Assembly (NCBI RefSeq): GCF_052324685.1
Contig: NW_027506874.1
Span: 340,001 to 404,000, forward strand
Reading direction: 5' to 3'
DNA: 64,000 bases
Origin: Brachyhypopomus gauderio
Taxonomy: Eukaryota > Chordata > Actinopteri > Gymnotiformes > Hypopomidae
Numbering within the stretch: position 1 is the first letter of the stretch; each line of letters starts with the position of its first letter. Positions 44,710 to 64,000 of the stretch are shown in pieces. The notes beneath the pieces were generated by a model. That model searched no databases. It was given only the letters and a program-made list of their open reading frames with translations, and had not been told where the DNA came from. A program made the position numbers and the translations under genes.

Positions 44710-47111
44710 TCAACTCTGGTACCTGAGGTCTGAACCGCTGGACTCCTCCGTTTCCACAGACCTGCTCCTGCCGACTCTGACTGGCCTCCCTACAGACACA
44801 CACCTCCTCCTCCTCTTCCTCATCACCTTCCTCCCGTCTGATCTCTGACTGAAGTGTGGTGATGTCATAGGTGTCTCCTGAAGATTCACCAGCTCCTCAT
44901 CGCTGGAGTCACTGAAGCATATGTGTTTATGTGTGTGTGTGTGTGTGTGTATACACATACCAATATATATATTAGAATGTAATGAAGAAAAAGTGTTTAT
45001 TTCATTTAATTTGATTATTATAACTGACAACTAATGAAAACCCCAAATTCAGTATCTTACAGAATTTAAATATTGTGAAATGGTTCAGTATTGAAGACAC
45101 CTGGTGCTACACGCTCAACACATAATGAACTCAAAACACCCACAAAGGCCTTTAAATGGTCTCAGTCTAGTTCTGGAACACAATCATGGGGATGACTGCT
45201 GACTTGACAGTTGTCTAAAAGATGACTGACACCTTACACAAGCAGGGAAAGATATAAAAGGTCATTGATAAAGAGGCTGTTCACAGAGCTGTGTGTCCAA
45301 GCACATTAACAGAGAGGAGAAGGAAGGAAAAGATGTGGTAGAAAAAGGGTACAAGCAATAGTGATAACTGCACCTGGAGAGGACTGTGAAACAAAACCCA
45401 TTCAAAAATGTGGGGGAGATTCACAAAGACTGGACTGCAGCTGGGGTCAGTGCATCAAGAACCAGCACACACAGACGTATGAAGACGTGGGTTTCAGCTG
45501 TCACCACACACAGACGTATGAAGACACGGGTTTCAGCTGTCATCACACACAGACGTATGAAGACACCACACACAGACGTATGAAGACATGGGTTTCAGCT
45601 GTCACCACACACAGACGTATGAAGATGTGGGTTTCAGCTGTCATCACACACAGATGTATGAAGACATCCGTATGAAGGTTTCAGCTGTCACATTCCTTGA
45701 GTCAAGCCACTCGTGGTCAAGAGATGCGTCAGAAGCGTCTCTCCTGGGCTAAAGACAAACAGGACTGGACTGCTGCTGAGTTATATTCTAAAGTTATGTT
45801 GATGAAAGCACATTTTGCCCAGATCCCAGAGTCTGGAGGAAGAGAGGAGAGGCACAGAACCCACGTGGCTTGAGGTCCAGTGTTTGGGGTTTGGGGTTCC
45901 ATGTCATCTGCTGGTGTTGGTCCACTGTGACCAACTTATGGAGATGCAGATTTCATTTTCCAACAGGACGTGGCACCTGCACACAGTGCCAAAGCTTCCA
46001 GTACCTGGTTTAAGGACCATGGTGTCCCTGTTCTTAATTGGCCACCAAACTCACCTGACCTTCACCACATCTATGGGGTATTGTGAAGAGGAAGATGCAA
46101 CACACCAGACCCTACGATGCAGAAGAACTGAAGGCCACGATCAGAACAACCTGGACTCTCAGAACACCTGAGCAGCACCACAGACTGATGGACTCTCAGA
46201 ACACCTGAGCAGCACCACAGACTGATGGACTCTCATAACACCTGAGCAGCACCACAGACTGATGGACTCTCAGAACACCTGAGCAGTACCACAGACTGAT
46301 GGACTCTCAGAACACCTGAGCAGCACCACAGACTGATGGACTCTCAGAACACCTGAGCAGTACCACAGACTGATGGACTCTCAGAACACCTGAGCAGCAC
46401 CACAGACTGATGGACTCTCAGAACACCTGAGCAGCACCACAGACTGATGGACTCTCAGAACACCTGAGCAGCACCACAGACTGATGGACTCTCAGAACAC
46501 CTGAGCAGCACCACAGACTGATGGGCTCCACGCTGCACTGCTGTAGTGTGCGTGTTATGAATGGAATTACTGAATCTACTTTTCATGATATTCAAATTGT
46601 ATGACCAGCACCTATGTGTGTGTGTGTGTGTGTTGTTGATGTATTCTGTGTTGATGTATTCTCTTCCTGGCATTGCAGCACAGCTACATGAGGCTGCAGG
46701 TATCTCCATAACGTGACTCACATCTCCTGCTCCGAGTTCTGGCCTGGAGGCCCCGCACAACCAGCACAGACGCTCCCCATCACTCTGAAGCACTTCATGC
46801 AGAAACACCCTGCAGAAACATACTGACATTTACACTGGAACTGTATGCACCAAGTATACAGTTCACATCTTGGTACAACTTGTGTTTTCAGCAGCAGCGG
46901 AACATATGGAGATATCTGGAGATATGAAACATTCATGCAGATGTAGATATGGAACAGACAGGAGTGTGTAACCTGTGCAGTGTGGCGTCGGGCAGATAAA
47001 CACATCTGGACTGTCTTTGCTTTTAATCACCTGGCCACAGGCCAAGCAACACTTTTCACACACCCCCAGGAGTCTGGCTATGGTGGCCCCACCAGGAAGA
47101 CTGCACACACA

Positions 47112-47176
<65 letters not shown>

Positions 47177-48096
47177 AGTTCTAGTGGGTCTCTCGCATGT
47201 TTCCTCCTCTGTAATGTGTTTGACAGGCGTCATAAGTAATCCATTACCAGTAAACTTTAGAGTGTGGTGCTATTTAATGGAGGATCTTACTGTCAGATAT
47301 GTTATTTACTGTTAATGTTAATGTTATTATTGCTCTGTCTGACTTCATTAACCACATGTCATTAAACCATGCCTAGAGCAGACCATCCACCAAACCATGG
47401 GCAAACTAACATGTGTGTGACTCACTGCAGTGCCAGTGTGTGCAGTGTGCTGCCAGCGTGACTCACCGCAGTGCCAGTGTGTGCAGTGTGCTGCCAGCGT
47501 GACTCACTGCAGTGCCAGTGTGTGCAGTGTGCTGCCAGCGTGACTCACCGCAGTGCCAGTGTGTGCAGTGTGCTGCCTGCATGACTCACTGTGGTGCCAG
47601 TGTGTGCAGTGTGCTGCCAGCGTGACTCGCCGAAGTGCCAGTGTGTGCAGTGTGCTGCCAGCGTGACTCACTGCAGTGCCAGTGTGTGCAGTGTGCTGCC
47701 AGCGTGACTCGCCGAAGTGCCAGTGTGTGCAGTGTGCTGCCTGCGTGACTCGCCGAAGTGCCAGTGTGTGCAGTGTGCTGCCTGCATGACTCACTGCAGT
47801 GCCAGTGTGTGCAGTGTGCTGCCAGTGTGACTCACTGCAGTGCCAGTGTGTGCAGTGTGCTGCCAGTGTGACTCACCGCAGTGCCAGTGTGTGCAGTGTG
47901 CTGCCAGTGTGACTCACCGCAGTGCCCGTGTGTGCAGTGTGCTGCTAGTGTGACTCACCGCAGTGCCAGTGTGTACAGTGTGCTACCAGTGTGACCTTCG
48001 TCCTCCCTTGCCCGGGCCAGCGCTCTGAGCACAGCTCTGCCCACACAGCGACGATGAGAGAGGATACGTCCACGGAGCCACAGGACTCTCTCCTGC

Positions 48097-48214: not shown

Positions 48215-50663
48215 AAGAGAAATACGATGCAGTTTCAGTTATGTACAGAAAATCTCATAAGCCTCTTTTTAAATTATGAAAAATAAAACAGACAATTTGA
48301 GAAACAGCACAAACGTAAGTGAACACTCTACCATTTTGGTTTAATCCTCTGGTACATTGGATACTAAATGAAACAATTACTCTAAGAATATCTACATTCA
48401 TCTGAAGATGTTTACATATTTATTGGCTGAATTATATAGAAATCACAGTTTGTTTCATCCATGGAGCCCCTCCCTCTTCCTGGGGCCCAGAATGAACATG
48501 ACACAAACTGAAATCGCCATGTTCATTAGTTTGCCGCATTCATTAGTTCACTAGTTTCGTTTAGTGTGTGATCTATAGATGTCTGGTTTCTTACGCACTG
48601 CATGGTGTCTACACAGGCACGTGTAAATGTGTAACATTCTTTGAATAGTTCCAATTCCACGTGTCTCCCTTCCTGTCTGTGAGGACGCAGTACACACTTT
48701 CACTTTCCCAGTGGCAGGAATGATGGACAACAATTGAATTAAGTGGGAGGGAGTCTCCCAACACACTGCAGTGGCAGGACCGAGACGCCCCGGTGACGCA
48801 CGTAGACACCGTGACCCCAACTGTCACCTCACTGGCCGTGTACTGCACCTCTGAACATTGTAGATGTGAAGTTGGGTTACAAACTGTAAAGCCCAGAACC
48901 ATGTAAAGAAACCTTCCCGTGTGTGAGGGGTGTGGAGACCAACCCTGGACCTCATGTGGGCGTGTGTGGTCTTACTTGTTCCCGTTGAGGATGGTAACGG
49001 CTGCACACAAACCTCTGCAGCCGTCGGGCGTAATGTCCAGCAAGAACCAGGAAACAGGAGAGGCCATAAAGCAGTCCTGCAGGCACAAGGTCAAAGGTCA
49101 GCTACAGCCCATTAAGCAGTCCTGCAGGCACAAGGTCAAAGGTCAGCCACAGCCCATAAAGCAGGGCAAAGACTTACCAGAGTCCGGCTGCATGGTACCA
49201 GTTCACCAGCAAATTGTTAACAAGATCTACCATAAAACTAGAACTACATGTGTAATCTCACCATATAATTTGACAGTTGACAGCACAACTGAGTTACAGA
49301 TTAAAGGTTTATGGTAGTTAACAAAACCAAGGATTTTTCATCATATAATTGGCCAACCCTATTTATAAAATGACTCAAAAGGCTTCAGATCCTGCAGAAA
49401 TCTCTCTATACTGCTCTGTGTGTTTAATGAATCATATGTCAACAATTATAAACCAAATGCAAACTACTATTGTAAAACAATGACAGGGTCTGTTGTTTTC
49501 ATTGGTGGCTGATTTACTGATGTATTTACACCTACACTGTATACCTGACAGATCTCACAGAATTGTGACACAGATAACAAATATTTCATTGTGCCAATAT
49601 TGTCCACTAGATGTCACCAGAGTGCTGTTTAATTGTAAGCATCATCACCAATGATTAGGTAGGCTGTGTATTCTGGTTCCAGAGGCTTCATCAGACACTT
49701 CCTGCTCAGCACTGTGATGTTCCCCCTTTGCAGGATGTCAAACGAGGCCACAATGTCCTTATAAATGTCTGCTGCATAGCCTGATCCATTCACCTCAACG
49801 TCAATGACTACAGGAGCTGCAGAAATACACAGCAAACGCCTCAAAGTTACACGCACACATTTATACATGCCCAGAAAATGACAATAAATATTTTGCAATA
49901 CAAAACGTGAAATGAAGAATTTCGATTGTGCATTGACAGACAGTTTGGTAGAAGCTCTTTTTTGATGAAAATGACATTGTGTGTGTCCTTGATCAACAGA
50001 AGTGATGACAGAGTGTTTCTGGATGCGCTGTTTCAGGGCAATGGGGAGTATCGATTCTTATTTTTACTGAATAAGCCAAATGCCGAGCTAATACTGAAGC
50101 ATTTTTTAACAGAAATATTCCTGTCTGGAGACTTGAGTACGCCAGTGTTATAGTAATATCATAAACGAAACGGAACTTGACATGCATCTAAATGGAAATT
50201 GTACTAATGATTCCCCAAGAAAGCATTAAAGCTCCCACACGTCTCACCTCTGGCTACTATCACACGTCTCACCACACGTCTCACCTCTGGTTACTATCAC
50301 ACGTCTCACCACACGTCTCACCACACGTCTCACCTCTGGCTACTATCACACGTCTCACCACACGTCTCACCTCTGGCTACTATCTCTCCCTGTGCTTGGT
50401 GATGCAGTATGTCAAACACCCAGAACACCATGAGGTCGAGGGCCATCACCACACCACCCATGGCCACGTGTCTGAGCAACGACACCAGGCCGGCCGCCAT
50501 GGCCCGCCTCTCTCGAGCAGTCAGACGCACGGAGCCTGGGGGGGGGGGGGGGGGGGGGGGGGCACAGACAACATGGCTGTCTAGATCCAGATATCCACTG
50601 TTTTGATTCCATCTTGTTATCAGATTAATTTTCTCTTCTACTATCGAATACACATGCAAACAC

Positions 50664-50739
<76 letters not shown>

Positions 50740-53700
50740 CGGATCTTGGGGATACAGTTTCCTCACAGGGAATGATATATGTTCGGGCTTCTTTGTCATT
50801 GAGCGGTAATACTGCCGGTCTTCCCTGTCTGGAGAACTTGCGGTCCAACTCCACAAACTGCTCCGTAATGTAGAAGTTCTCAAAATCATCCACGTGGAGG
50901 TAACGGTGTTTGTACAGGACGGCCCTGTTCACAAGTGCCAAACACACACCCTCACTATCACTGTATTACAGTGCACTCACTATCACTGTATTACAGTGCA
51001 CTTACTACCACTGTATTACAGTGCACTCACTACCACTGTGTTACAGTGCACTTACTACCACTGTATTACAGTGCACTTACTACCACTGTATTACAGTGCA
51101 CTCACTACCACTGTATTACAGTGCACTCACTACCACTGTATTACAGTGCACTTACTGCCACTGTATTACAGTGCACTCACTACCACTGTATTACAGTACA
51201 CTTACTACCACTGTATTACAGTGCACTTACTACCACTGTATTACAGTGCACTCACTACCACTGTATTACAGTGCACTCACTACCACTGTATTACAGTGCA
51301 CTTACTACCACTGTATTACAGTGCACTCACTACCACTGTGCTGTAACTGAGACTGTGGGCTGGACTCACTGCAGGTACATGAGGAGCAGTACAAACAGGC
51401 CCACGTAGGTCAGCAGAGCGGTGAGCTGGTGGAAGTGTCTCCGGGCCTCCGTCACCTCCTCCAGGATCTTCTGTGTCGTGTCCCGCACGGACTGACTGCT
51501 GTCCAGACTCATGTTGAAGTGCACAGAGGCGGACATGTTGAACTCAAACTCCTTTCTCATGCGCTCGAATGCTGCAATGGTGGCTGGAATTAAATTAGCC
51601 AAGTCAAAAAAGTGGATCAAAAGGAACCCAGCAGTTAATGTAGCGGTGCGGCTGACACATGAAAGGACGAGACTGGGACAGAAACACCTCAGAGGAGGCG
51701 ACGGCACTTACGCAGGGCCAACTCAGCCTTTAGATGGTTACCAATATATGAAGGAATGATACAGAAGAACTCGCCAACTGTTGAGATGGGGAGAAATATG
51801 AGATAGGAAATAGTTACTGATATAAACAAAACATAAATAAAACACACGCTACTCACAGCATCCAAAACACCTTTTACATTTGTAGCTTTTAAATGTGTTC
51901 AAACACTTAAACGTTTGGCTAAGGATATTGATATTGGGTTTTGTGAATTTCAAAGTCATAAAACTTCATAGAGCATGTGGCAATGTGGACTGTAGCATCC
52001 TGCGGGACGGTCCACTGTAGCTCTGTCCTGCGAGACGACCCACTGTAGCTCTGTCCTGCGGGACGGCCCACTGTAGCTCTGTCCTGCGGGACGGCCCACT
52101 GTAGCTCTGTCCTGCGGGACGGCCCACTGTAGCTCCGTCCTGCGGGACGACCCACTGTAGCTCTGTCCTGCGGGACGGCCCAACACAGCGTCCTGCAGCA
52201 CAGTCTTCTGTTCCAACCTCCTGTGCTTTGCTTGTCTTATGTTGCGTGTGCAGTGTGAGGTAACGTTTGGACTCTGTGGCGGGCACGTGAGAAGGACCCT
52301 GGTGAGGAAGCGAGTCAGTGGCGTAAAAAGGGGGTATGCAGCGTATGCGACGCATAGGGGCGCTGCACTAGAGGGGGCGCTGCACTAGAGGGGGCGCTGC
52401 ACTAGAGGGGGCGCTGCACTAGAGGGGGCGCTGCACTAGAGGGGGCGCCAAATCGATGCCAGAAAATTATTTGCCGAGTTGGTGGGGGTGGGGGGGGGCG
52501 CCGATAGTATGTTTGCATACACCTCAGAAAGTATGTAGTTGCAACCCTGAAGTGAGTGACGCACGCTTGCGCAGGTACACGCAGGTACACGCAGGCACAC
52601 GCGGGCACACGCAGGCACACGCGGGCACACGTGGGGCGAGAGAAAAGCACAGTGCAGGCTCAGCACTCCCAGCACATCATAAGCAGCTTTCACTGCACAA
52701 TGCAGATGCCTGAAGGGGATAAACACTTGATACTGACACTTAATCATTACTCACAGAAGCAGAGCTCACTGCTGCTATTTTTACACATAAACTACACTAC
52801 AGTCTCAAGTAACACAGGGGAAACGTCATTCTGAGTCACACAGCCCCGCCACAGTCTTCCAGTGAAGATGCCAATCACATGACTCAAAACTACATGAATT
52901 ACAAAGTGGCAGCGAGTCTGACCGCGTGTGAGTCCACAGAGAGGCCGGAACCCGTCGGCGATGCGGCACAGGAAGGAGAAGACGGACAGCAGCGCCATGC
53001 AGCTCGCGCGGCCCTCGTCGAACACCGCGTTGCACTTTTTATACGGCGTGCCCAGTTTGTCGTTACAGATGTCGCCGATGCTGGCCAGGAAGTGCAGCAC
53101 GTTTCTCAGAGAGCGAGCTGAAGGCAGAGAGAGAACAGCGTGTTAGTGCCACCACAGTCCCGGTGTGTGTGTCTGTAGGTGCCGTTAACGGACACTCACC
53201 TGTGTGGCGCACGGTGTGCGCGAGGGCTTGGATGAAGTTCTGGACCCTGCCGGCCAGTGAGTGCGCGCGCCGGCCCACGTCCTTTATCTTATCCAGCACC
53301 GCTACATCACACCACACACACACCACACACACGGTCATTTACGGAGACACGTGGCTGTTACAGTTCAGGTGCACGTAGAAGGCGCGCGCGAGACTGTAGC
53401 GCGTGGGGCTGCAGCGCGTGGAACTCACGCAGCAGTGGAGAGGCCGCGCGCTGCAGCAGCTGCTGTGTTTGGTTCCTGGTCAACTCCGCTCCGCACACCA
53501 CGCTGCCCGCCGCGCGCTCCACGTTGGCCAGCGTGTTGGTGAAGGGGCCCTGGATGAGCAGGGTGAGGGTGAGGAAGAGCACCACCCGTTTACCCTCCCC
53601 TACACACGGAGAAACACAACACGGGGTGGGTGGATGTGAGAACACCACCCGTTTACCTTCCCCTACACACGGAGCAACACAACACGGTTGGGGGGCTATG

Positions 53701-54541: not shown

Positions 54542-57500
54542 ATGGAGGATCTCGGTGGGACAAAGCAGAAAAAAACTCCCCATTCAAGTATGTTTTCCTG
54601 TGAGATGACACTATTTCTGGCCTTGGTCAACTTTTCTGAAAAGAAAAACAAAACAGAAAAACAAACCTGTGATTTTGTGTTTCACGTGAGCTTTGGGGAA
54701 GATCGGTGAACACATACTGCCTGGTGTAGCTCGTCGGTTTCTGTTCCACACGACGGTCCAGTTCCCCGTGGCCAGACTCCTCCTGGGGGCTGCGTTTGGT
54801 GCCATCTGTGGGGCGGGTGAGCGTGTACGGTTGTATTTGTCTCAGCGATATCAGCTCAAGCTGAATCGTAGAAAGGGGCTTATGTAGCTACTGTCTTGTG
54901 TTCTTACTGTCTTGTGTTCTTACTGTCTTGTGTTCTTACTGTCTTATATTCTCACTGTCTTGTGTTCTTACTGTCTTGTGTTCTTACTGTCTTGTGTTCT
55001 CACTGTCTTGTGTTCTTACTGTCTTGTGTTCTCACTGTCTTGTGTTCTCACTGTCTTGTGTTCTCACTGTCTTGTGTTCTTACTGTCTTATGTTCTTACT
55101 GTCTTATATTCTCACTTGTCTTTCTTGTAGCTCTGTTCTTTGGACTCATGCAAAATCTTCCCATCACCCCCTTCCACAGAGTTACTGCTGGATACGTGTT
55201 TGTAGGTATGGGTCTGCTGTGTTGGTTTCAGTGTGTGTTAGAGTACGGTGTGTTACACATGGCCATATGTGATACATAATATGTTCTTCATGGTGCCTTC
55301 ACAGCACTGTGTGTCCTGGGCAGCATGTTTTCTTCATACTTTCGCTGCTCAGTCCTCCTGGTGTTTCCCAGCATGCTCGGCTCCCGTGGACGGGCTTACA
55401 TCATGATCTTTGTCCTGCATTGCCTCTATCAAGGTATACACCAGTAGTGCCACAACTACTGAACTGTCCAAAACCAGTAACACCAGGAGGGAAAGCATTT
55501 AATAGAAGACTTAGTCAATTTATTAATCAATTATTTAAATCAACTAACTGATTCTTGATTAATTTTTTCATTTGGCATTCAACAGAATTTAGTGCTTTAG
55601 GTTCTAAACCTGTATTTAATGTTCTGGTACATATTTGTGTTGTTTATCAAACCAAGCTCACTACATCACTACATTTAAGCTCACTACATTTAAGCTCACT
55701 ACATTTAAGTTCAGTGTAATAGTAATGAAACCATCATATTAATGTAGGGATAAGTTAATCAGGAATATATGATCATTCAATACATGCAATTTCTCTTATG
55801 ATTACTATGATATTGCTTATGATGATAACAAACATGGTGATAATCAAACATCATGGTGGTGATGAGGGTGGGGGCCCTGCTGAAACATGGTGGTGATGAG
55901 GGTGGGGGCCCTGCTGAAACATGGTGGTGATGATGGTGGGGGCCCTGCTGAAACATGGTGGTGATGATGGTGGGGGCCCTGCTGAAACATGGTGGTGATG
56001 ATGGTGGGGGCCCTGCGATCCAGCTTGATTTATAACATCTGTCTGGGGACTATTATACTTTCGAGCAGATACTGGAACAGTAATAGGACTAGGTTCAGTA
56101 CTTGGACTAGGTTCAGGCCTGTGTTACAAACAAAACAAAGTTCATACCTGCAGTAATGTATTGTCTTAGGTCCAATCTCCAACATCCAGCGTAATGTCCA
56201 GGATGTGGCCTTCTCCATGGGCTGCAACATAGACCAGCAGATCGGTCACAGTAAGATCATGTGGAGGGTGGTGACCGAGCCTTTCGTTCAGGTGCTTCAA
56301 GAAATAGTGGTGAGTTCAGTAGTGTATTAATGGCACATTCAGGATATACCCCGCCAACATGACTAGTACAAGAACACAAAAAGACTCATTTACTAGCCAC
56401 TTAAGTTCATAAGGCTCAGATAATTGGCAACAGTTTGTACATATATAAACAAACAGAAGATCATCAAGTTAATAAATTAGATTTTAGTTACAAAGACACT
56501 CCGAAATAAATTTGCACAGTGAGCCCCCATCTACATGGAAACACCTGTGGACCCTCAGCACTCTGCTATATGCCAGTGCAGACCACACGCGTCTTCTGTC
56601 CTTCAGGAGGACAGCGTGAAGCTCCAGAGGGAGGCACACAATGTGAGCAGGACGTTCCAGAAGATCAGGGAGGAGGTGATGGGCCAGTACGGGTACGACG
56701 CTTTGGGCCAGAGCTCTGCAGATCTCGGGAGCAGCACCCAGGAACAGTATGCTGCCAAGACCATGATGCGCTGTGACTGTGAGTAGCACTGCCCTCCTCC
56801 AGAATAACTCAAATATCACTATAATCAAATATCACTCACATATCACTCAAATATCACTATAATCAAATATCACTCACATATCACTCAAATATCACTATCA
56901 TCAAATATCACTCACATATCACTCAAATATCACTATCATCAAATATCACTCAAATATCACTATAATCAAATAACGCTCACATATCACTCAAATATCACTA
57001 TCATCAAATATCACTCAAATATCACTATAATCAAATAACGCTCACATATCACTCAAATATCACTATCATCAAATATCACTCAAATATCACTATAATCAAA
57101 TAACACATATCACTCAAATATCACTATAATCAAATATCGCTCACATATCACTCAAATATCACTATCGTCAGATAATGGAGAGTCTAGGCTCATCTCCTCA
57201 TATTTGTGACGGCAGTAAGTCAGTGTGTTGTTGTGATGAAGTAAGTCACAGTGTGTTGTTGTGATGAAGTAAGTCACGGTGTGTTGTTGTGATGGAGTAA
57301 GTCACAGTGTGTTGTTGTGATGAAGTAAGTCACAGTGTGTTGTTGTGATGGAGTAAGTCACAGTGTGTTGTTGTGATGGAGTAAGTCACAGTGTGTTGTT
57401 GTGATGAAGTAAGTCACAGTGTGTTGTTGTGATGAAGTAAGTCACAGTGTGTTGTTGTGATGGAGTAAGTCACAGTGTGTTGTTGTGATGGAGTAAGTCA

Positions 57501-59813
57501 GTGTGTTGTTGTGATGGAGTAAGTCCTGTGTGCAGACATCGTGAACGAGGGTGCCACACGCTGCCAGGACTGGTTTGGTGCTAAGTGGCAAGACTGCATG
57601 GACACCATTAAATCACCCGTCATCAGTCACTTCCTCTGTGTGCCTATGAAATTCACATTTCTGTGTAATGTGATGCGAGGTAAGTGTGGGCGGGGCAAGA
57701 GTAACACTGCATGTGTGGGCGGGGCAAGAGTAACACTGCATGTGTGGGCGGGGCAAGAGTAACACTGCATGTGTGGGCGGGGCAAGAGTAACACTGCATG
57801 TGTGGGCGGGGCAGCTCCCTCGTCATTTTGATTCGATTTAGAAATGTAACCTTTTGTCAAGGCAGAAAAGTTTCCAAAAAACTTTAAACTAATTCCTCGA
57901 TTTTAAAATGTACTTTCATCATAATTATCATAATTATAAAATTAGTTACGGTAATTCCAGTTTGTGCTGATTCAAGGTTGTGTTGGTCTCAGTAATGATC
58001 CCATGGTGTAAGGAGCACATTCCAGTGGAGGGGAACTTTGGACGCACATTTGACAAGCTGGACTCCTCTATCAGTAGTCTGGGAGAACGCTTCACCTCCA
58101 GTCTGGTGTTTCAGGTGCAGTGGCCCGGTTTGACCTGCTCTATCTCCCCTACCTGTATCTCCCCTACCTGTCTCTGTGCATCTCTTAAAACACACAATAA
58201 ATAGGAAAAATTTTCAGGATCTTATCTGTTTGCTAGGATGGGTGAGCTTTAGGGATAATCTGTAATCAATAATCTATAGCCTAATTGATTTAATCAGCAC
58301 CATATTCTTGGTCAACTAATGTAATATTACGTCCATGCTGAAATCTATAACAAAGCAGGTTTTGTATGTGCTGAATGTGTGTGGCTGGGTGTGCAGAAAC
58401 TAGAGCAGGATGCCATGATTGGTGTCACGCTTCTACAGGAGGAATTTCGTAAGGAGCTCATGAGGTCGTTTCAGGAGAAGAGAGCCGTTGTTGAGCAGAT
58501 CGCACATTTTGTGCAGGTTCTTCTCACCTTCACGTTCATCACTTTTTTCACCTCGTAAGTGCACAAACCCTCGTATAGATTTCCACTGTCCACCGTGTGC
58601 TCCTTGTGTGACGCACTGGCAGTATTGAATACATACACACTGGATCTTGCACGCTATGCTCTTAGATGTTCTTGTTTTTCATGTTTCTGAAGTGCCGTTG
58701 GATACGCACGGCAGTTCACGGGAGACATTCGCTTCGACAACGTCTACATCACAACGTACTTCAGACAGATCGATGAACGGAGACGGAGAGCAGTGAGGAT
58801 GTTGTCCTTTACCTCTAACATGTCTGCGTCTTGTCGCAAGCTGACTGAAACTACGTGTTTTAGGGCAGGAGATATCTGCTGCCCTTGAAGAAGACAGAGA
58901 GGAGTAGTTTCATCAACCCCTGGAGTCTGGTGATCCATCCCAAAGAGCTTCAACTAGTGGTGTGGTCTTCAGAGCTACACTGTTGAATCACTGCTAGCCT
59001 CCGCGTACTGTAAGAGGGTCTGAAACGCTGTCCATGTCTCTAGACAGGTGGCTTGGTGCAGGTGTTTTCACTCACACTCTTTGTATGTGCTCTGCTGGCC
59101 ACGGATGGCATTCTCTACCACATCTTTGACATCATCCATAGGCATACCTTCACCGAGTACTCCCTTACCAGTGAGAACACACACAAATACAAAGAATGTT
59201 TCCTCCTTTACTGTAATAAACACCCATTTACTCTGGTAGCAGAAACATTAGCAAAATGTCCTGACCTCTGTGGCCATTTATGTTGTTGTGTTCACAGGTA
59301 GTCATGACGTCCATATTGATATTGGAGGAACATCCATGATAGCCAGTCTCCTGCGGAAAACGATCGGTGCCTTCAACACCTCCTCCAGCCTGGACATGCA
59401 GTCCAGTAACCAGCGTAGGTGGTGCAAACGCTGACTCATGGTGTTATATGAGGTCCAGAGCATCCATCTTAGAAATGCTACACACCATTCAGTCTCACTG
59501 CGTTGTCAAAGACACCACGGCACTGTCAAAATGACCTTCCTCTACTGCTAGACATCATAACCACTCGGTGTTATAATAACAATAATAACCACTCAGTGTT
59601 ATAATAACAATAATAACCACTCGGTGAGGTCAGTGAAGAGTACGGTGGTCTTGTCTGTACATTTGACAGCAGTGTTTGTTCAGGTGGCTCACAGGTGAAG
59701 TATTTTAGATTAGATTAGATTCAACTTAGTCATTTCACATGTCACAAGTACAAAGCAACGAAATGCAGAAATGTGATATAATGCTAGACATCTGTCTAAT
59801 GTTGAGACGTGTG

Positions 59814-60184: not shown

Positions 60185-63100
60185 GGCTTGAGTGAACAGG
60201 TCTAGGGACTGTAGTTGAGTGAACAGGTCTAGGGACTGTAGTTGAGTGAACAGGTCTAGGGGCTGTAGTTGGGTGAGCAGGTCTAGGGGCTGTAGTTGAG
60301 TGCGCAGGTCTAGGGGCTGTAGTTGAGTGAACTGGGCTCCCCCCTGAGTCTTGGTTCCTCTCAAGGTTTCTTCCTCATGCAAAAACTAGGGAGTTTTTCC
60401 TTGCCACTGTCGCCTTTGGCTTGCTCACTGGGGCCTAGGACTTGGCACTTGTAAAGCTGCTTTGTGACAACAACTGTTGTAAAAAGCGCTATATAAATAA
60501 AATTTGATTTGATTTTTGATTTGAACATGTCTAGGGGCTGTAGTTGAGTGAACAGGTCTAGGGGCTGTAGTTGAGTGAACAGGTCTAGGGGCTGTAGTTG
60601 AGTAAGCAGGTCTAGGGGCTGTAGTTGAGTGAGCAGGTCTAGGGGCTGTAGTTGAGTGAACAGGTCTAGGGGCTGTAGTTGAGTGAACATGTCTAGGGGC
60701 TGTAGTTGAGTGCACAGGTCTAGGGGCTGTAGTTGAGTGAACAGGTCTAGGGGCTGTAGTTGAGTGAGCAGGTCTAGGGGCTGTAGTTGAGTGAACAGGT
60801 CTAGGGGCTGTAGTTGAGTGAACAGGTCTAGGGGCTGTAGTTGAGTGAGCAGGTCTAGGGGCTGTAGTTGAGTGAACAGGTCTTGGGGCTGTAGTTGAGT
60901 GAGCAGGTCTAGGGGCTGTAGTTGAGTGAACATGTCTAGGGGCTGTAGTTGAGTGCACAGGTCTAGGGGCTGTAGTTGAGTGAACAGGTCTAGGGGCTGT
61001 AGTTGAGTGAGCAGGTCTAGGGGCTGTAGTTGAGTGAACAGGTCTAGGGGCTGTAGTTGAGTGAACAGGTCTAGGGGCTGTAGTTGAGTGAACAGGTCTA
61101 GCGGCTGTAGTTGAGTGAACAGGTCTAGGGGCTGTAGTTGAGTGAACAGGTCTAGCGGCTGTAGTTGAGTGAACAGGTCTAGGGTCTGTAGTTGAGTGAA
61201 CAGGTCTAGGGGCTGTAGTTGAGTGAACAGGTCTAGGGGCTGTAGTTGAGTAGGGGCTGTAGTTGAGTAAACAGGTCTAGGGGCTGTAGTTGAGTGAACA
61301 GGTCTAGGGGCTGTAGTTGAGTAAACAGGTCTAGGGGCTGTAGTTGAGTGAACAGGTCTAGGGGCTGTAGTTGAGTAAACAGGTCTAGCGGCTGTAGTTG
61401 AGTGAGCAGGTCTAGGGGCTGTAGTTGAGTAAACAGGTCTAGCGGCTGTAGTTGAGTGAGCAGGTCTAGGGGCTGTAGTTGAGTGAACAGGTCTAGGGGC
61501 TGTAGTTGAGTGAACAGGTCTAGGGACTGTAGTTGAGTAGGGGCTGTAGTTGAGTAAACAGGTCTAGGGGCTGTAGTTGAGTAAACAGGTCTAGGGGCTG
61601 TAGTTGAGTGAACAGGTCTAGGGGCTGTAGTTGATTTGAACATGTCTAGGGGCTGTAGTTGAGTGAACAGGTCTAGGGGCTGTAGTTGAGTGAACAGGTC
61701 TAGGGGCTGTAGTTGAGTAAGCAGGTCTAGGGGCTGTAGTTGAGTGAGCAGGTCTAGGGGCTGTAGTTGAGTGAACAGGTCTAGGGGCTGTAGTTGAGTG
61801 AACATGTCTAGGGGCTGTAGTTGAGTGCACAGGTCTAGGGGCTGTAGTTGAGTGAACAGGTCTAGGGGCTGTAGTTGAGTGAGCAGGTCTAGGGGCTGTA
61901 GTTGAGTGAACAGGTCTAGGGGCTGTAGTTGAGTGAACAGGTCTAGGGGCTGTAGTTGAGTGAACAGGTCTAGCGGCTGTAGTTGAGTGAACAGGTCTAG
62001 GGGCTGTAGTTGAGTGAACAGGTCTAGCGGCTGTAGTTGAGTGAACAGGTCTAGGGTCTGTAGTTGAGTGAACAGGTCTAGGGGCTGTAGTTGAGTGAAC
62101 AGGTCTAGGGGCTGTAGTTGAGTAGGGGCTGTAGTTGAGTAAACAGGTCTAGGGGCTGTAGTTGAGTGAACAGGTCTAGGGGCTGTAGTTGAGTAAACAG
62201 GTCTAGGGGCTGTAGTTGAGTGAACAGGTCTAGGGGCTGTAGTTGAGTAAACAGGTCTAGCGGCTGTAGTTGAGTGAGCAGGTCTAGGGGCTGTAGTTGA
62301 GTAAACAGGTCTAGCGGCTGTAGTTGAGTGAGCAGGTCTAGGGGCTGTAGTTGAGTGAACAGGTCTAGGGGCTGTAGTTGAGTGAACAGGTCTAGGGACT
62401 GTAGTTGAGTAGGGGCTGTAGTTGAGTAAACAGGTCTAGGGGCTGTAGTTGAGTAAACAGGTCTAGGGGCTGTAGTTGAGTGAACAGGTCTAGGGGCTGT
62501 AGTTGATTTGAACATGTCTAGGGGCTGTAGTTGAGTGAACAGGTCTAGGGGCTGTAGTTGAGTGAACAGGTCTAGGGGCTGTAGTTGAGTAAGCAGGTCT
62601 AGGGGCTGTAGTTGAGTGAGCAGGTCTAGGGGCTGTAGTTGAGTGAACAGGTCTAGGGGCTGTAGTTGAGTGAACATGTCTAGGGGCTGTAGTTGAGTGC
62701 ACAGGTCTAGGGGCTGTAGTTGAGTGAACAGGTCTAGGGGCTGTAGTTGAGTGAGCAGGTCTAGGGGCTGTAGTTGAGTGAACAGGTCTAGGGGCTGTAG
62801 TTGAGTGAACAGGTCTAGGGGCTGTAGTTGAGTGAGCAGGTCTAGGGGCTGTAGTTGAGTGAACAGGTCTTGGGGCTGTAGTTGAGTGAGCAGGTCTAGG
62901 GGCTGTAGTTGAGTGAACATGTCTAGGGGCTGTAGTTGAGTGCACAGGTCTAGGGGCTGTAGTTGAGTGAACAGGTCTAGGGGCTGTAGTTGAGTGAGCA
63001 GGTCTAGGGGCTGTAGTTGAGTGAACAGGTCTAGGGGCTGTAGTTGAGTGAACAGGTCTAGGGGCTGTAGTTGAGTGAACAGGTCTAGCGGCTGTAGTTG

Positions 63101-64000
63101 AGTGAACAGGTCTAGGGGCTGTAGTTGAGTGAACAGGTCTAGCGGCTGTAGTTGAGTGAACAGGTCTAGGGTCTGTAGTTGAGTGAACAGGTCTAGGGGC
63201 TGTAGTTGAGTGAACAGGTCTAGGGGCTGTAGTTGAGTAGGGGCTGTAGTTGAGTAAACAGGTCTAGGGGCTGTAGTTGAGTGAACAGGTCTAGGGGCTG
63301 TAGTTGAGTGAACAGGTCTAGGGGCTGTAGTTGAGTAAACAGGTCTAGGGGCTGTAGTTGAGTGAACAGGTCTAGGGGCTGTAGTTGAGTAAACAGGTCT
63401 AGGGGCTGTAGTTGAGTGAACAGGTCTAGGGGCTGTAGTTGAGTGAACAGGTCTAGGGGCTGTAGTTGAGTGAACATGTCTAGGGGCTGTAGTTGAGTGC
63501 ACAGGTCTAGGGGCTGTAGTTGAGTGAACAGGTCTAGGGGCTGTAGTTGAGTGAGCAGGTCTAGGGGCTGTAGTTGAGTGAACAGGTCTAGGGGCTGTAG
63601 TTGAGTGAACAGGTCTAGGGGCTGTAGTTGAGTGAGCAGGTCTAGGGGCTGTAGTTGAGTGAACAGGTCTTGGGGCTGTAGTTGAGTGAGCAGGTCTAGG
63701 GGCTGTAGTTGAGTGAACATGTCTAGGGGCTGTAGTTGAGTGCACAGGTCTAGGGGCTGTAGTTGAGTGAACAGGTCTAGGGGCTGTAGTTGAGTGAGCA
63801 GGTCTAGGGGCTGTAGTTGAGTGAACAGGTCTAGGGGCTGTAGTTGAGTGAACAGGTCTAGGGGCTGTAGTTGAGTGAACAGGTCTAGCGGCTGTAGTTG
63901 AGTGAACAGGTCTAGGGGCTGTAGTTGAGTGAACAGGTCTAGCGGCTGTAGTTGAGTGAACAGGTCTAGGGTCTGTAGTTGAGTGAACAGGTCTAGGGGC
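60185..64000 (+). repeat. 27-bp minisatellite megaarray with higher-order duplication
   Basis: About 130 units of AACAGGTCTAGGGGCTGTAG followed by TTGAGTG run to the window edge inside dcst1 intron 14. Variants (GAGCAGG, GTAAACAGG, CATGTCT, CTTGGGG, CTAGCGG, a truncated GAGTAGGGGC) occur in a fixed order that repeats with offsets of 872 and 1,115 bp. The 27-bp unit keeps minus-strand frames open, giving ORFs of up to 546 codons of FTQLQPLDL and HSTTAPRPV repeats. These are not genes. Confidence 0.96.
60337..60524 (+). mobile_element. L2-type LINE 3' fragment inside the megaarray
   Basis: From CTCCCCCCTGAGTCTTGG through GGCTTGCTCACTGGGG, GTAAAGCTGCTTTGTGACAA and AAAAAGCGCTATATAAATAA to a (TTGAT)n-like end. 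Array units lie on both sides, and GAAC at each junction may be a remnant of target duplication. It is the same family as the tail at 39395-39525 but longer. Confidence 0.88.

Follow-up and report, generated by a model that had tools for sequence, protein, structure and literature searches.

The closest known counterparts of the repeat described here are the amphioxus 'mirages' and the VNTR in intron 18 of human ABCA7. Mirages, as reported for the amphioxus genes Adh3, globins, TnC and PGBD5, have unit lengths of 10-72 bp in Adh3 and 150-160 bp in the globins, and copies at the boundaries were reported without disturbance of splicing (PMC3087553; PMC3902484). The ABCA7 VNTR, in the published account, has a 25-bp unit and starts with the donor of exon 18, and a frameshift and a premature stop result when the donor of the following unit is used (PMC5954066). 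For human genes within segmental duplications, it has been stated that tandem repeats at exon-intron boundaries can create alternative splice patterns; these repeats were detected through comparison of recent paralogues, with transcripts serving as a check (PMC2812944). A donor-copying array in teleosts or in dcst2 was not named in any of the titles and abstract openings returned by a literature search. Within those titles and openings, nothing contradicted the claim of the first-pass annotation that a 5′-splice-site minisatellite was undescribed for DCST2, but the kind has been described in other genes.

The window, the whole stretch of 64,000 nt of Brachyhypopomus gauderio DNA that was analysed (C30:340001-404000, part of a 797-Mb assembly), carries a DC-STAMP-family gene on its minus strand. 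Joined through splice signals and phase, exons 2 to 15 gave a single open frame of 709 codons; the exon numbering agrees with the exon 12 of the first-pass annotation, and the model begins at exon 2. The DC_STAMP profile PF07782 matched the joined frame over its full length (profile positions 1-191 of 191, E = 2e-59, 201.1 bits). A second DC-STAMP gene, on the plus strand, gave a PF07782 match above the cut-off at C30:399869-400018 (36.9 bits) and a further match below the cut-off at C30:398733-398792 (22.9 bits), and additional exons of this gene were recognised by eye. According to the profile matches and their strands, the two genes are arranged head-to-head. The names dcst2 for the minus-strand gene and dcst1 for the plus-strand gene were adopted from the first-pass annotation and are provisional. 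The DC-STAMP family to which dcst1 and dcst2 belong is needed for sperm-egg fusion. The head-to-head order of Dcst1 and Dcst2 has been reported in mouse as well (PMC8989947).

In the dcst2 model, exon 11 ended in phase 0, and the donor of exon 12 and the acceptor of exon 13 were both phase 2, the frame being continuous from exon 11 through exon 13 (Table 1). Cysteines of a C-terminal tail were apparent in the translation of exons 13 and 14. No Pfam match to a RING was obtained in this cysteine-rich tail, and comparison of the exon 12-14 segment with the PDB gave nothing useful, the single match being at chance level (E = 0.16).

The end of dcst2 exon 12 lies within a 41-bp minisatellite, for which TRF gave a period of 41, 14.1 copies, 93% matches and a score of 962. 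Parsed from the exon, the array consisted of 14 complete units (37 nt plus GTGA), each with 0 to 5 differences from the sequence of unit 3, which served as reference; the first unit was made up of the 37 nt that end exon 12 and of the GTGA of the donor. The first-pass annotation had given about 13 units of 41 bp, of which the period was correct and the count has been replaced by 14 complete units. The array starts in the exon with GTCACAC and closes at its intron end with a 7-nt partial unit, GTCACAC, beyond which ordinary intron follows. Because of this partial unit, the position of the duplicated 41 bp is uncertain by up to 7 nt, and the duplicated segment comprises 30-37 exon nt and 4-11 intron nt.

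In this arrangement, the array resembles the mirages in that tandem units span the exon-intron boundary and carry splice signals (14 donors), and it shares the position at such a boundary with the repeats of human segmental duplications (PMC2812944). It resembles the ABCA7 VNTR in starting at the exon end, with the predicted real donor in the first unit; as described, however, the ABCA7 array begins at the donor GT and includes no exon bases, whereas the dcst2 unit includes up to 37.

The 41-bp array is real. Tandem arrays are prone to misassembly, but the units are non-identical, both flanks reach sequence outside the array, and similar copies were present at four other junctions of the dcst1/dcst2 pair, which makes an assembly error in copy number or at the junction very improbable. 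The 663-bp region had one full-identity occurrence in the 797-Mb assembly; the four other matches listed showed 68-73% identity. Homology of the array elsewhere was considered and rejected, the one of these four at C15:5.35M having long arrays of other periods, 22 and 16 bp (TRF).

Table 1. Features of the dcst2 gene and of its copied splice junctions (positions in the window; a slash marks the exon-intron boundary)
Feature	Position	Strand	Description
Exon 3 acceptor duplicate	53587..53687	-	Second copy 63 bp upstream, 23/24 bases alike across the junction
Exon 9 donor array	50235..50384	-	Exon end ATAGTAGCCAGAG and donor GTGAGACGTGTG; mixed 12/25/37/49-bp periods
Exon 11 acceptor tandem duplication	49064..49164	-	45-bp unit, 2.2 copies
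dcst2 exon 12	47959..48092	-	134 nt, starts in phase 0 and ends in phase 2; frame runs on from exon 11 and into exon 13
41-bp minisatellite	47417..47995	-	14 complete units; intronic beyond the exon part of the first unit; TRF and unit alignment
Exon 12 donor GCG/GTGAGT	47953..47961	-	Exon ends at 47959, intron begins at 47958
In-frame TGA within the first donor (CG/G TGA GT)	47957-47955	-	Met by any transcript spliced at a later donor
13 further donors	47420..47920	-	First intron bases from 47917 down to 47425, 41 bp apart; 10 GTGAGT, 3 GCGAGT
dcst2 exon 13	46973..47100	-	128 nt, starts in phase 2; first tail cysteines
dcst2 exon 14	46722..46809	-	88 nt; more tail cysteines
dcst2 exon 15	44710..44911	-	Last coding exon, through the stop

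As the first-pass annotation had stated, the array consists of multiple copies of the exon 12 coding end with its 5′ splice site, 14 donors being found in 14 units at a spacing of 41 bp (47958 to 47425; 11 GTGAGT and 3 GCGAGT). Its view that the exon-proximal unit provides the exon end agreed with phase and sequence, the donor of this unit being phase-compatible with exon 13. Scored with a matrix of vertebrate frequencies taken from general knowledge, which was also applied to the dcst1 and myosin donors, the first donor reached 9.1 bits; four distal donors were equal to it and nine scored below. Strong selection for the first dcst2 donor is expected.

It had further been proposed that donor choice, and with it copy number, sets a family of alternative C-termini in which every third unit stays in frame and adds 41 residues, with the RING tail changed or removed through later donors. 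Several donors are indeed present. However, the TGA lies inside the first donor and in frame, and every later donor therefore yields the same truncated product: for all 13 distal donors, including that at +123 (three units), an identical product of 571 residues ending in STLYTLALR and the stop was predicted in silico (this length, and that of 600 residues given below, were counted from exon 2). This product is without the cysteine-rich tail; hence removal of the tail was borne out as the sole predicted outcome of distal donors, whereas its change was not. The proposal is refuted for the assembled sequence by the TGA at 47957-47955, and hardly any credence is left to it. Besides residing in a fish gene, the dcst2 array differs from the mirages in that each extra donor copy runs into a stop inside the donor itself.

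With the second donor, the stop is located 37 nt ahead of the exon 12/13 junction, and the distance is greater for later donors. By the usual rule, a stop upstream of later exon junctions makes an mRNA a candidate for decay. As the stop precedes later junctions, exons 13 and 14 following it, the distal-donor dcst2 mRNAs are candidates for nonsense-mediated decay.

At the exonic edge of the array, there is a weak donor-like sequence, AAG/GTCACA, with last exon base 47996, first intron base 47995 and a score of 2.8 bits. The exon might thus earlier have ended near 47996, the last 37 nt of the present exon 12 being an exonised repeat unit and the donor having shifted into the array. Alignment by eye, with residues counted by hand, showed dcst2 to be about 10 residues longer than dcst1 between two motifs, as such a shift would predict, although motif spacing counts little here because the two genes are distant paralogues. 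Moreover, the donor at 47995 is in phase 1 and, when joined to the exon 13 acceptor, gives ...VFLVGPP followed by a stop, so that the acceptor must also have moved. Exonisation is therefore considered rather unlikely.

Copied junctions were also found elsewhere in dcst2. A junction was scored as copied when its surrounding 24 bases recurred within 800 bp with at least 19 of the 24 alike. By this test, a local tandem copy was present for 4 of the 27 dcst2 junctions: 2 of 13 donors (exons 9 and 12) and 2 of 14 acceptors (exons 3 and 11). As far as the mirages have been described, they too affect 5′ as well as 3′ boundaries (PMC3087553; PMC3902484). The exon 9 array contained eight GTGAGA donors; in silico, the donor 12 nt downstream would add GETC in frame, and six other later donors would truncate the product. 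The upstream copy of the exon 11 acceptor would, if used, lead to a stop. Use of the upstream exon 3 copy would keep an open frame and lengthen the protein by 21 residues; judged from its sequence, this copy is a candidate for an alternative 21-residue insertion. Intron 7 of dcst2 (445 bp) consists almost entirely of a 25-bp array at 50951-51339, and 94% of its tested positions had a local copy.

Minisatellites, counted when the period was at least 9 and the copy number at least 2.5, made up 19.7% of the window; their share in the C30 flank (54.5 kb) was 22.8%. Coverage was 2.8% of 99.9 kb at 30 myosin loci, which partly overlap so that some bases were counted twice, and 0.8% and 0.6% in two 10-kb stretches around DC-STAMP relatives; two other 10-kb stretches, which had been fetched for their resemblance to the array, gave 13.0% and 6.5%. 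At the myosin loci, a copy was seen for none of 24 donors and for 39 of 3566 flank positions; these donors, selected on score in the vicinity of the profile match and possibly wrong in some cases, remained after 6 of the 30 loci had been dropped as near-duplicates or as being without an acceptable donor. The myosin genes are a narrow control for minisatellites. Within dcst2, a local copy was found for 1846 of 6311 intron positions (29%; 458 low-complexity positions excluded) and for 22 of 1584 exon positions. Special targeting of dcst2 splice sites by minisatellites was rejected on these figures, since the proportion of copied junctions (4/27) was below that of intron positions, which indicates that the dcst2 junctions are not preferred.

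Among the dcst1 junctions, for which anchors were picked by eye, a copy was found for one of 12 donors and for none of 13 acceptors. The copied donor, CCG/GTGTGT at 66733 (window numbering; on L014, past the window end), belongs to an exon that corresponds by eye to dcst2 exon 12, the next exon being cysteine-rich. Directly 3′ of that exon, TRF identified a 31-bp array of 43.3 copies (L014:2723-4063; window numbering 66723-68063), in which a donor-like motif, CNG/GTGTGT or AGTGTGT, recurs with 42 pattern matches. Of the 13 later dcst1 donors listed, only the third (+93 nt) preserves both frame and tail, with 31 residues added. The rule of every third unit, put forward by the first-pass annotation, holds in the dcst1 array and fails in that of dcst2. 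Elsewhere in dcst1, an intron contains a 27-bp array of about 4.6 kb (window 60522-64000 and L014:38-1122), and the exon at 57536-57679 lies between the minisatellites 57204-57532 and 57684-57813, the former ending 3 bases before the exon and the latter beginning 4 bases into the intron.

A purely random model leaves unexplained the coincidence that dcst1 was hit at the corresponding exon, which, with few hits and one case, is weak evidence. A joint role of the two arrays, whose lengths, perhaps variable among males, would together set the amounts of tail-bearing Dcst1 and Dcst2, in dcst2 through truncation and decay and in dcst1 through either truncation or the insertion of 31 residues in frame, appears quite improbable.

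The dcst2 array is probably the result of a hotspot tandem duplication straddling the exon 12 junction, the growth of which has been tolerated since the donor nearest the exon is intact, presumably still in use and no weaker than any later copy. A 41-bp stretch across the exon 12/intron 12 boundary would have been duplicated in tandem and expanded to 14 units, the array belonging to a local hotspot that has many minisatellites. The later units would be intronic copies, with normal mRNA still made from the first donor, and occasional use of a later donor would produce only one kind of message, whose frame would close before the cysteine-rich tail and which would be a candidate for decay. We infer this order of events, the use of the first donor and the near-neutrality of the array from the features described above; most likely, the array is a harmless repeat expansion of a type already known.

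By analogy, ABCA7 counts against such a neutral reading, as a similar array is described there to alter splicing when long (PMC5954066). In dcst2, array length could likewise lower the level of normal mRNA through later donors or skipping of exon 13, and copy number would then tune the amount of full-length Dcst2. For ABCA7, splicing at the donor of the next unit along was given as about 2%, and skipping of exon 19 rises with array length (PMC5954066); the 128 nt of dcst2 exon 13 are such that its skipping would shift the frame and give a 600-residue product with a different end. Against this, retention of one unit in ABCA7 was unchanged by array length, and the dcst2 array is short, about 0.58 kb versus 315 to 9711 bp for the named ABCA7 alleles (PMC5954066). 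A dose effect of this type is accordingly unlikely in dcst2. Length polymorphism and splicing effects have been proven for the ABCA7 VNTR (PMC5954066), and undisturbed splicing and instability of allele length are traits of the mirages, whereas the dcst2 array is described from the sequence of one assembly. The preferred reading stays that of a tolerated hotspot duplication.

Copying of splice junctions reaches further across the locus than the first-pass annotation recognised, and the consequence of the dcst2 array is simpler than it proposed. With five copied junctions at the dcst1/dcst2 locus, the range of boundary-spanning minisatellites now takes in the two members of a fish gene pair with fertilisation-essential relatives. 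One of the three reading frames of GTGAGT contains TGA, which is one reason why copies of this donor often cannot create new protein ends. The locus provides a countable natural test of the choice of the spliceosome among up to 14 near-identical donors, and if array length varied among males and altered the tail, it would have a bearing on male fertility.
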